Below the pieces are notes generated by a model that worked only from the letters and a program-made list of their open reading frames with translations, did no database searches and was not told the origin of the DNA. A program made the position numbers and the translations under genes. Below are positions 12,160 to 49,421 of a stretch of DNA of 64,000 nt, piece by piece. Each line of letters opens with the position of its first letter. The stretch's first letter is position 1. The DNA is from a virus, in the IMG/VR virus record IMGVR_UViG_3300043568_002887, positions 1 through 64,000 of that record. One strand, written 5' to 3'.

Positions 12160-12421
12160 ATGTTATTTTACTTTTTACTATTTTTATTTTTAATGTGTCA
12201 GTTCCTTTTATCAACCTATGCCATTCACCCATTGAAATAAACACTGGTGAATTTAGGCTTTGTGGAAGTCTATTCTCTAGCTGAATTAGCCAATCAGTTT
12301 CTTCTACTGCAACCACTGTTCTGTATTCGTCATCGCGATGCCATTTTAATTCAATTGGATCGATTGATTCATCAAATGTTCGAATCACATATTCTTCTAA
12401 TTCAAGGTCACTATAAATCAT
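12149..12421 (-). CDS. Conserved phage protein of unknown function
   Basis: The start at 12421 is chosen because its ATG shares one base with the upstream TAA (TAATG), giving 90 residues; a longer frame would begin at 12454. It contains ELKWHRDDEYR near residues 24-34 and WLIQLENRLP near 43-52, a pattern I associate with small uncharacterised T4-group proteins. No transmembrane segment or signal peptide is visible. It is translationally coupled to both neighbours in the tail block. Confidence 0.6.
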   Translation of the reverse strand: MIYSDLELEEYVIRTFDESIDPIELKWHRDDEYRTVVAVEETDWLIQLENRLPQSLNSPVFISMGEWHRLIKGTDTLKIKIVKSKITYAT

Positions 12422-12993
12422 TACCAGAATCCAGGATAAGTTTTTCCGCCCCAAAGGTGAGCGTATCGATTGATTCTACAGGCCCAATATCCAGCCTTAG
12501 TTCGGTCCTTCTTCTCAGCACAATTGTGTCGAGCAGCAAATGACTTTCTAGCTTTAGGATTTGATACCTTTGCGGTAAGTCCACCATGAACATCGCCAAA
12601 CGCAATTTTCATGATTCTTCTAGTTTTAGGATTCCTTACGTATACATGATACTTCTTAGCTCCTCCACGTTTAGGATAATTTAATTTAGGAGTCTTTTCT
12701 TCATTAAGATCTAAAACTTCTAGTGGAAGATCTAGTGGAACTTCTACCCCATTAAATATTCCGGTCAGGCCTAAATCAGTATTCTCAAATAGGTGTTTAT
12801 CTAGTTGACCAAGTTCAAGAAGACCATCGTAAAATCTTTCCCTTGCTTCACACAACATTATAACATGCGCTTGTGAACCAGGTCTAAACACTGACTCTGC
12901 GATACTGTGCTCATGGTCAATGTGGTACTTAAGATTTTCTGAAATCTCACCTTTTCCAATAAACTGACTAAAACTTTTTATTCTGGTTTCCAT
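12421..12993 (-). CDS. Phage protein with C-terminal Cys/His basic domain and possible capsid-targeting start
   Basis: The 190-residue protein starts METRIKSFSQFIGKGE, which resembles the aromatic-x-x-F-I-x-E targeting start of T4 internal head proteins, though less exactly than the genes at 47643-49106. Residues about 113-180 (YHVYVRNPKTRR, then RKSFAARHNC and GYWACRINRY) form a basic Cys-containing domain seen at the ends of assorted tailed-phage proteins of unknown role. It could be a head-associated protein. An AATAAATAA motif lies only 5 nt before the ATG, too close for the usual spacing. Confidence 0.55.
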   Translation of the reverse strand: METRIKSFSQFIGKGEISENLKYHIDHEHSIAESVFRPGSQAHVIMLCEARERFYDGLLELGQLDKHLFENTDLGLTGIFNGVEVPLDLPLEVLDLNEEKTPKLNYPKRGGAKKYHVYVRNPKTRRIMKIAFGDVHGGLTAKVSNPKARKSFAARHNCAEKKDRTKAGYWACRINRYAHLWGGKTYPGFW

Positions 12994-47584: not shown

Positions 47585-47613
47585 AGCAGCAAATTACTTT
47601 TGCTGCTTTTTTG
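47585..47613 (+). terminator. Rho-independent terminator after nrdA
   Basis: Stem AGCAGCAAA (47585-47593) pairs with TTTGCTGCT (47599-47607) and is followed by a T-run. It separates the nrd operon from the late-type genes that follow. Confidence 0.85.
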
Positions 47614-47617
47614 TTTA

Positions 47618-47626
47618 GATAAATAA
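47618..47626 (+). promoter_or_regulatory. Candidate late promoter (GATAAATAA)
   Basis: GATAAATAA starts just after the nrdA terminator and ends 16 nt before the ATG at 47643. It would express the three putative internal head proteins late. Confidence 0.65.
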
Positions 47627-47642
47627 TAAAAAATCTATTTTC

Positions 47643-47876
47643 ATGTTTAGTTTCAACCAATTTGTAAATGAAAGTAAAGATCATGAATTTGAATCTATTG
47701 AAAAGGGCGATCTTGTTAGATATGCAGCTACTCGATTTGAGGTAAAGAAAGTTAACGATGGTTCAATTGTTCTTGCTGGTAAAAATAGTGATGTTAAAGT
47801 TAATAAGAATATGTGGAAACAACGAAATGGAATCATTATAGAAAAAAAGAAAGACTCTAATAAAGATGAAAAATAA
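47643..47876 (+). CDS. Putative internal head protein with capsid-targeting start
   Basis: The 77-residue protein begins MFSFNQFVNES. T4 internal proteins start with a ten-residue capsid-targeting sequence of the form MKTYQEFIAE that is removed after Glu by the prohead protease. The aromatic-x-x-F-x-x-E spacing here matches. The remainder is a small basic/beta domain (DLVRYAATRFEVKKVNDGSI) resembling a KOW/SH3-type fold. It is behind a late-type promoter and overlaps the next gene by 11 nt. Packaging is inferred, not shown. Confidence 0.6.
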   Translation: MFSFNQFVNESKDHEFESIEKGDLVRYAATRFEVKKVNDGSIVLAGKNSDVKVNKNMWKQRNGIIIEKKKDSNKDEK

Positions 47877-48357
47877 ACATATTCGTAAGTATTCAGAATT
47901 TATTATTGAACAGGACCTAGGAATGCCTACTATGCCAGGAGCTCCAGCGGCACCAGTAAAGAAGGCAATCGAATATAAATTTCTATTTATGACTGGCCAA
48001 GATGATGTTGGAAATGGTCGTCGTAAATACCCAGATGGTAGTGTTGTAATAGAATACCCTTGTTATTCTATTGATGCAGAAAAACTAACGGCTTGGGCTC
48101 AAGAAAACATAATAGATTCCGATAAGAAAAAGTTAACTGGACCTGAAATAGAAGTTCGACAAAAAAGTCTAATTGATATTGTTAAGGGTGATCGTGTAAA
48201 TATTTCAAGTGAAGACTTACCATTTATTGAAAAACTAAAAAATGCATCTGCTTCAAATATTATAGCTAAGCAACTGCCTGATGTCACAGTAGTTTTTTCA
48301 AGTGATATGCCTACGACTGAAGACATTGATGTAACCTTCATAAAACATAAAAAGTAA
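47866..48357 (+). CDS. Putative internal head protein with capsid-targeting start
   Basis: The 163-residue protein begins with KYSEFIIEQD (residues 8-17), again aromatic-x-x-F-I-x-E, with a predicted cut after FIIE. A Met/Pro/Ala-rich linker follows (residues 20-33). A compact domain then includes FLFMTGQDDVGNGRRKYPDG and a long helical part ending in VTVVFSSDMPTTEDI. No known family was recognised. It is coupled to its neighbours by an 11-nt overlap upstream and a TAATG overlap downstream. Confidence 0.6.
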   Translation: MKNKHIRKYSEFIIEQDLGMPTMPGAPAAPVKKAIEYKFLFMTGQDDVGNGRRKYPDGSVVIEYPCYSIDAEKLTAWAQENIIDSDKKKLTGPEIEVRQKSLIDIVKGDRVNISSEDLPFIEKLKNASASNIIAKQLPDVTVVFSSDMPTTEDIDVTFIKHKK

Positions 48358-49106
48358 TGATTAAGTCATTTATCGAATTTATAAACGAAAGCATGGATCA
48401 AAAATCCCAATTTATTAAGGATCTTTCTCAAACATTGATTGAGAAATTACGTACCTCTTCTCTAGAAGAGAGTACACAATATACTATTTTTTCTGGGATG
48501 GAATTTGTAGAACCATTTACGTTTGACCTAATTTTAAACGTTCGTCGCGATAATTCACCTATTCTAGAAGAAGATAATCATTTTAACGGGTTACCTTGGG
48601 AAAAAATAAATTTTGATCACTTAGGATATTGTATTGATGCTAATACCAAAATGAGTAAATCAAAATCAAAGATACCCAAAATAGTATTACATATTATTTT
48701 AAACCCAAAAGCAGAACCTATCCTATATAGCAAAATGTATTATCGATTAATCGATATTCTTACTCATGAAACAAATCATCTAGATCAACTTGGTATAAAC
48801 AGAACTCCTTTTAATTCTCATGTAAGTGATAAAATGGAGAGAAATAACGCTAAGAAGAGCTACAAATATTTCCTATTAGGCGATGAAATAGAATCAATGG
48901 TTGAAGGAATGTATGCAAGATCACAAGCCCAAAATATTCCATTAGATCAAGTATTTGATAGCTACCTAATTCCATTTATTCAATCTGGTTATATAAATAT
49001 CGCTGAATACCTTCACGTAATGGAAGCATGGGTTACTCAAGCATTAGAACAATATCCAGATGCTACTTTTTCAACTAAAGTAGACCATATAGTTACCTCA
49101 ATTTAA
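48357..49106 (+). CDS. Putative packaged zinc metallopeptidase (HExxH)
   Basis: The 249-residue protein begins MIKSFIEFINES, a strong match to the T4-type targeting start with cleavage expected after FINE. At residues 137-141 it has HETNH, an HExxH zinc motif, inside ILTHETNHLDQLG. About 35 residues later an acidic helix (GDEIESMVEGMY) could provide the third ligand. This predicts a zincin protease that would be packaged in the head and injected with DNA, like T4 Alt or internal proteins. The host target is unknown. The HExxH could be fortuitous but its helical context is right. Confidence 0.62.
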   Translation: MIKSFIEFINESMDQKSQFIKDLSQTLIEKLRTSSLEESTQYTIFSGMEFVEPFTFDLILNVRRDNSPILEEDNHFNGLPWEKINFDHLGYCIDANTKMSKSKSKIPKIVLHIILNPKAEPILYSKMYYRLIDILTHETNHLDQLGINRTPFNSHVSDKMERNNAKKSYKYFLLGDEIESMVEGMYARSQAQNIPLDQVFDSYLIPFIQSGYINIAEYLHVMEAWVTQALEQYPDATFSTKVDHIVTSI

Positions 49107-49151: not shown

Positions 49152-49421
49152 ATGAACGATTTTGAAAAACTAAAGGCTGAAATTGCATCTGTTCAAGCTG
49201 CAATATTTGACCCAATTATTTCCCTTGTATCAGCAGCAGAAGAAGACGCTGATAAATATTATGGAAAAGGTGTAAAAAGCGCTGGAAACAGACTTAAAAA
49301 GAAAATGCAAGAAATTCGTAAAGAAATTAAGCATCCAGCAATTAAAGCTGAAATGACTAAACTTCAAGAAGGTGCAAAGAATCTTCGCCAAACTTTGACT
49401 GACGAGATCGCAGCAAAATAA
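49152..49421 (+). CDS. Histone H1-like DNA-binding protein (Hc1 family)
   Basis: The 89-residue protein has at about residues 31-60 the segment DADKYYGKGVKSAGNRLKKK followed by MQEIRKEIKH. It resembles the Hc1 family of Bacteroidetes and Chlamydia, where K-x-x-A-G-x-R-x-x-K-x-M-Q-E repeats. Both flanks are helical. Hc1 proteins bind and compact DNA. In a phage it could condense phage DNA or reprogram host chromatin. It lies just before gp32 and ends at a strong terminator. Confidence 0.7.
   Translation: MNDFEKLKAEIASVQAAIFDPIISLVSAAEEDADKYYGKGVKSAGNRLKKKMQEIRKEIKHPAIKAEMTKLQEGAKNLRQTLTDEIAAK

Follow-up and report, generated by a model that had tools for sequence, protein, structure and literature searches.

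Three consecutive genes in the DNA analyzed here (the window, 64 kb taken from a virus record that is 68,260 bases long) start with similarly spaced short peptides, which raises the question of whether these peptides direct the gene products into the phage head and what such products might do. By our own reading, the source phage appears to be T4-like, with ORFs for a ribonucleotide reductase, a single-stranded DNA-binding protein, a UvsX-like protein, gp46/47-like proteins, and a tail sheath; the family search also returned a gp32-type match among the window ORFs. The best overall explanation, which we consider probable, is that the three genes form a late operon of capsid cargo. We infer that they encode internal head proteins of the T4 style with scaffold-like tags, part of a cargo set that is unusual in its size and diversity and probably contains a zinc enzyme.

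The three ORFs follow one another on the plus strand at 47643-49106 and have 77, 163, and 249 codons. The 77-aa protein (47643..47876, +) starts with MFSFNQFVNE followed by S, the 163-aa protein (47866..48357, +) with MKNKHIRKYSEFIIE followed by Q, and the 249-aa protein (48357..49106, +) with MIKSFIEFINE followed by S. ORF reading thus confirmed the starts FNQFVNE, YSEFIIE, and FIEFINE, which the preliminary description had assigned to three neighboring genes. Relatives were found through the 249-aa protein, and five of them were examined (G001, G002, G003, G005, and G006, the last a 63-kb fragment); their genes come from a simple ORF caller applied to genome pieces, and some starts are uncertain. 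Between the window and G006, changes at the third codon position dominated in the 163-aa gene (38 of 48), the 249-aa gene (57 of 100), and the 77-aa gene (17 of 32), indicating that the three ORFs are real genes. Orthologs of the 77-aa protein were 83% identical in G006 and 64% identical in G003. None of the three proteins had a confident family in Pfam or PHROGs.

The gene pair at the end of the cassette is constant. A tagged homolog of the 163-aa protein is encoded directly upstream of the 249-aa gene in 35 of the 35 loci with sequence there, while the 77-aa gene is not always present and three loci have a fourth tagged gene. The model of the 163-aa protein (pLDDT 75.9) consists of a tag helix, a disordered Pro/Ala linker, and one alpha/beta domain, for which the fold search listed no confident PDB match. 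Right behind the cassette, an 89-aa protein (49152-49421, +) matched the histone-like Hc1 family (PF07432, 1.8e-10). Elsewhere in the window, a 190-aa protein (12421..12993, -) carrying METRIKSFSQFIGKGE with a displaced cleavage Glu is a possible fourth cargo protein. By eye, it resembles a family that is tagged in G001 (FTQFVNES) and in G002 (FTQFIGES), of which it is an apparent ortholog.

Just ahead of the cassette, the ribonucleotide reductase gene on its upstream side has an intrinsic terminator (47585..47612, +; -12.6 kcal/mol, z of -5.5 against shuffles) with a T run behind it. Downstream of it, a single copy of a late-promoter-like box, GATAAATAA, was read directly from the sequence 5' of the first cassette gene (47618..47626, +). 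The box previously described ahead of the genes thus precedes the 77-aa gene only. The genes overlap at nt 47866-47876 (77- and 163-aa genes) and at nt 48357 (163- and 249-aa genes), which together with the position of the box indicates that the cassette is one operon. Of 47 tagged genes, 22 have the box ATAAATAA in the 50 nt ahead of them, versus 129 of 843 others (Fisher p = 9e-7), an enrichment in keeping with late expression as judged from sequence. In each of the four relatives whose protease-scaffold gene was read, that gene is preceded by a similar box, ATAAATAATAA.

The N-terminal peptides were compared with the capsid-targeting sequence of T4. Ten residues of T4 IPIII suffice for packaging, with targeting dependent mainly on residues 4 and 7 and processing on residues 8 and 10, and the prohead protease gp21 cuts after L/I-X-E (PMC9026906). 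The predicted tag of the 77-aa protein (47643..47672, +; predicted cut after E10) has the motif and spacing of T4 IPII and IPIII, with aromatic residues at positions 4 and 7, an aliphatic residue at 8, and Glu at 10, although position 8 is Val, whereas T4 gp21 takes Leu or Ile. Tags are likewise predicted in the 163-aa protein (47866..47910, +; cut after E15) and the 249-aa protein (48357..48389, +; cut after E11), and all three keep the aromatic/aromatic-aliphatic-X-Glu spacing, a pattern that IPII and IPIII also fit. The tag motif was written as [FY]xx[F/Y/H/L/W][I/V/L/M]xE near the start codon. The earlier proposal that these are capsid-targeting sequences cut after Glu is well supported at the sequence level: the four positions tested in T4 are conserved, the Glu is kept throughout the 163-aa family (22 of 22 homologs) and in 22 of 23 members of the 249-aa family, an S77 protease is encoded in relatives, and many unrelated proteins bear the tag. 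The cassette N termini are thus very probably packaging tags.

As in T4 IPI, IPII, and IPIII, a short N-terminal tag with two fixed aromatics, an aliphatic residue, and a Glu is found on small proteins, and one tag is common to otherwise unrelated proteins; unlike in T4, no relation of the mature parts to these proteins was detected in the Pfam and PHROG family searches. T4 has three or four tagged proteins, whereas four of the relatives have 6 to 13. T4 Alt is an enzyme that the head carries and whose propeptide is cut, and relative G002 has a tagged ART-PolyVal protein, but the cassette enzyme is a predicted zinc metalloenzyme and the tag of Alt has a different sequence. In the giant phages SPN3US and phiKZ, a gp21 homolog cuts several head proteins after a short Glu-ending motif before they are ejected (PMC5694885); the propeptides there are mostly longer than 100 residues with A-X-E or S-X-E sites, in contrast to the short and uniform predicted tags seen here.

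The 249-aa protein contains the HExxH zinc motif HETNH at residues 137 to 141 (48765-48779, +), and H137, E138, and H141 were invariant in 23 sequences. The motif lies within a predicted helix (residues 122 to 142), so that its reported location in a helix was borne out in the model. Three further invariant residues in these 23 sequences, E177, E179, and E183 (48885..48905, +), are located in a predicted helix at residues 175 to 192 and are candidate third zinc ligands. The structural model had a pLDDT of 86.9 and a pTM of 0.85, with the tag poorly resolved. The family comprises 37 loci in IMG/VR; no relatives were found by tblastn in 50,697 phage records, the family profile had no match among PDB sequences, and Foldseek gave no confident match in the PDB (E of at least 0.08). 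When the model was realigned, M1 aminopeptidases came out on top, with a VIA Z of at most 4.2, which is below the reliable range (rmsd 4.4 over 127 residues). The protein resembles gluzincins such as the M1 aminopeptidase N in having, by prediction, HExxH in a helix and acidic residues in a later helix, but differs in that the structural match is weak and there is no sequence match. Of the zinc protease predicted in the preliminary description, the metalloenzyme part appears likely from the invariant HExxH and the predicted helix, while zinc aminopeptidases are matched only weakly at the level of the fold. The protein is likely a zinc enzyme, and on sequence and model there is a good chance that it is a zinc peptidase.

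It is rather unlikely, yet deserves weighing, that the 249-aa protein binds zinc without being a peptidase and that it and its 163-aa partner exert their effect through binding, for example in an anti-restriction or antidefense role like that of T4 IPI. The lack of any family match, or of a strong structural one, to known peptidases would be explained in this way, as would the 163-aa partner that always adjoins; the invariant Glu at the catalytic position of HExxH and the invariant acidic residues in the following helix argue for catalysis instead. We consider it improbable that a packaged HExxH protein works in the head or its assembly, as a second maturation protease or in the clearance of scaffold fragments, rather than on the host. 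Such a role would agree with the late-type promoter box and the head tag, and in another group of jumbo phages, a maturation role has been proposed for a zincin-like peptidase (PMC7824862). The 249-aa gene, however, is not encoded among the head genes, and its tagged companions include an enzyme type known from host takeover, an ADP-ribosyltransferase. Moreover, head maturation in T4 is not known to require a protein of this kind. The 249-aa protein would most likely serve as a zinc metallopeptidase that attacks a host protein at an early stage of infection and works together with its 163-aa neighbor.

Neither gp21 nor gp23 was found in the partial 68-kb record of the window, and the evidence on the protease therefore comes from the relatives. 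An S77 prohead protease is present in G001, G003, G005, G006, and G008, and a gp23-like capsid protein is encoded in relatives. The protease occupies the N terminus of a polypeptide of about 660 residues, the rest of which reads as scaffold; this protease-scaffold fusion is located at G001:52877-54856 (locus L054), G003:42022-43998 (L065), G005:38954-40939 (L072), and G006:12788-14761 (L077). In the scaffold half, a 14-residue unit built on the tag pattern, such as YTEYVKENVNNSIK, is repeated in tandem eleven times. In all four genomes read, the strict motif was present in 9 or 10 of the eleven repeats against an expectation of 0.18. When a tag profile was used, 26 of the top 60 internal matches fell in the scaffold, which makes up 1.2% of residues, and conversely, 18 of the top 40 matches of a repeat profile outside the scaffold fell within the N-terminal 25 residues, which make up 9.9%. 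The earlier view of the three tags overlooked the repeats in the scaffold and a dozen other tagged proteins.

Since the tag follows the pattern of one 14-residue unit of the scaffold, it would dock the cargo into the prohead core. Mimicry of the scaffold repeats as the docking mechanism is, as judged from these sequences, somewhat favored. Tagged cargo would enter the core of the assembling prohead as a pseudo-repeat of the scaffold, and the S77 domain of the fusion would cut after Glu in repeats and tags alike, degrading the scaffold and freeing the mature cargo within the head. The cargo would then be ejected along with the DNA, in analogy to T4 Alt and the internal proteins. That the cassette proteins are injected and act on host proteins follows by analogy from T4 Alt and IPI, and we give it slightly better than even chances. 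The mimicry is not transferable from T4, because T4 gp22 has no such tandem tag-like repeats.

The motif could instead be no more than a longer stretch recognized by the prohead protease, with packaging decided elsewhere and the cargo, scaffold, and capsid protein all serving as substrates. The propeptide end of T4 gp23, FGSFLTE followed by A, does fit the whole motif, and the scaffold repeats are probably cut as well. In T4 IPIII, on the other hand, the aromatics at 4 and 7 govern targeting, and positions 8 and 10 govern cutting (PMC9026906). By eye, the capsid protein of the relatives has L/I-F-E or L-A-E candidate sites, and these (WLAE, PLFE, and PIFE) lack an aromatic residue at the first motif position. 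An explanation by protease recognition is thus unlikely, and docking through the tag is preferred.

Fusions of this type also occur in other phages. In Tenacibaculum phage PTm1 (BBI90692) and the published huge phage LR756500, the S77 protease and scaffold are likewise joined in a single polypeptide, and the capsid gene comes next. LR756500 also has 14-residue scaffold repeats, but the strict motif was matched there only three times, and PTm1 differs in having no clear excess of the tag (4 versus 1.4). No tag-scaffold match was found by eye in PAU or PTm1.

The number of tagged proteins in the relatives clearly exceeded that expected by chance. There were 13 in G003, 12 each in G001 and G002, 6 in G005, and 3 in the 63-kb fragment G006, while the means for permuted motifs were 0.3 to 1.1 across the relatives and 0.4 to 1.1 in the four with 6 or more. 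In G003, the mean was 0.69 and the maximum was 6 in 100 motif permutations; the means in G002 and G001 were 0.60 and 1.07, respectively. When no motif was preset, the pattern f..fi.E was among the top N-terminal patterns in G003 (13 versus 0.88, p of ~1e-11, ~44,000 patterns) and was also recovered in G002 (11 versus 0.38, p of ~4e-13, ~42,000 patterns). The 68-kb record alone contained the three cassette tags and one likely chance match, so that the genome search suggested earlier for further such starts yielded many in the relatives (6 to 13 in each of four) and only the cassette three in the record itself. Some regex matches are chance or start-codon errors, namely those in a ribonucleotide reductase subunit, a 1741-aa protein, and a DNA ligase. 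The regex was also rejected as a general marker for T4-like phages, as it matched 4 of 270 proteins in T4 and 4 of 313 in PTm1, near background; the T4 matches include IPII and IPIII, but IPI and Alt were missed.

The tag is also conserved within families. Its free positions favor Ser/Thr, Gln/Glu, Asn, and Ser, giving F-S-Q-F-I-N-E followed by S, and the tag codons vary synonymously, indicating that selection acts on the protein sequence. In the 163-aa family, 14 columns are invariant, E15 among them, and a variable linker rich in Pro and Ala comes after this Glu. In the 249-aa family, F5 is invariant, and the mean column entropy is 0.83 for residues 3 to 11 versus 1.72 for residues 12 to 50. 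In one 249-aa homolog (L036), the cleavage Glu is replaced by Asp and the aliphatic residue by Ser. A chance likeness of AT-rich start regions, to which the mere three clear cases in the record of the window might point, is hardly credible, being already contradicted by the permuted-motif counts and opposed by the recovery of f..fi.E without a preset motif, the invariance of the cleavage Glu, the synonymous variation of the tag codons, and the recurrence of such sets with other tag sequences in distant huge phages.

The tagged proteins of the relatives belong to about two dozen families, many without annotation. Among them are an ADP-ribosyltransferase in G002 (ART-PolyVal, PF18760, 1.6e-12), a Nudix hydrolase (PF00293, 2e-12), and a nucleotidyltransferase with a weak match. 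A second tagged HExxH family (HELTH/HELMH) was observed at G001:133644-134609 and G002:63437-64402, with the two members 41% identical to each other; its homology to the 249-aa family was not supported by hhalign (probability of 8.6%). In several proteins, good tags are located internally, after 45 to 135 residues (G003:74676-75674, G001:194558-195109, G002:107737-108222, G001:69216-69869, and G006:31002-31739), and some of these have acidic segments behind the tag. They are possibly core proteins with long propeptides or the result of wrong start codons.

Similar sets with other tags were found in two further phages. About 22 proteins of LR756500 start like MKYIKEYEEFLNE, including leucine-rich-repeat proteins. 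The permuted-motif control is loose in this phage, with 26 observed and a maximum of 26, and the set is supported by the uniform MKYI-Y-EFL tags and by patterns obtained without a preset motif (top p of ~1e-35). One of the tagged proteins (LR756500.1 200318-201793, -) has DUF2201 metallopeptidase and VWA domains. In Sphingomonas phage PAU, 19 proteins start with MK[TS][LI]xxL[YF]E, including gp154, which is annotated as an internal capsid protein; PAU gave one match with the motif of the window and is positive only with its own tag. Several tagged PAU proteins (JQ362498.1, e.g., 100248-113735) have a second candidate site, KLNE, after the tag. By sequence, the tag sets of LR756500 and PAU are independent of that of the window, and no description of them was found in the open-licence papers searched.

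To our knowledge, all that has been established about the recruitment of T4 internal proteins is that their 10-residue tag has affinity for the core. The occurrence of the tag pattern as tandem repeats of the scaffold turns this into a concrete and testable docking model. In addition, the tag provides a marker for candidate injected effectors that can be read from sequence alone, and it yields 6 to 13 mostly unannotated proteins in four relatives, 19 in PAU, and about 22 in LR756500. Candidates for host takeover in uncultured phages, including zinc enzymes, can thereby begin to be catalogued. In its broadest form, the proposal, for which we see the chances as evenly balanced, is that the tags of these T4-related jumbo phages are detached copies of scaffold repeats and that one code loads about a dozen or more effectors in each phage, among them several unrelated metallopeptidases. 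If true, this scaffold-repeat tag code would predict injected effectors from sequence.
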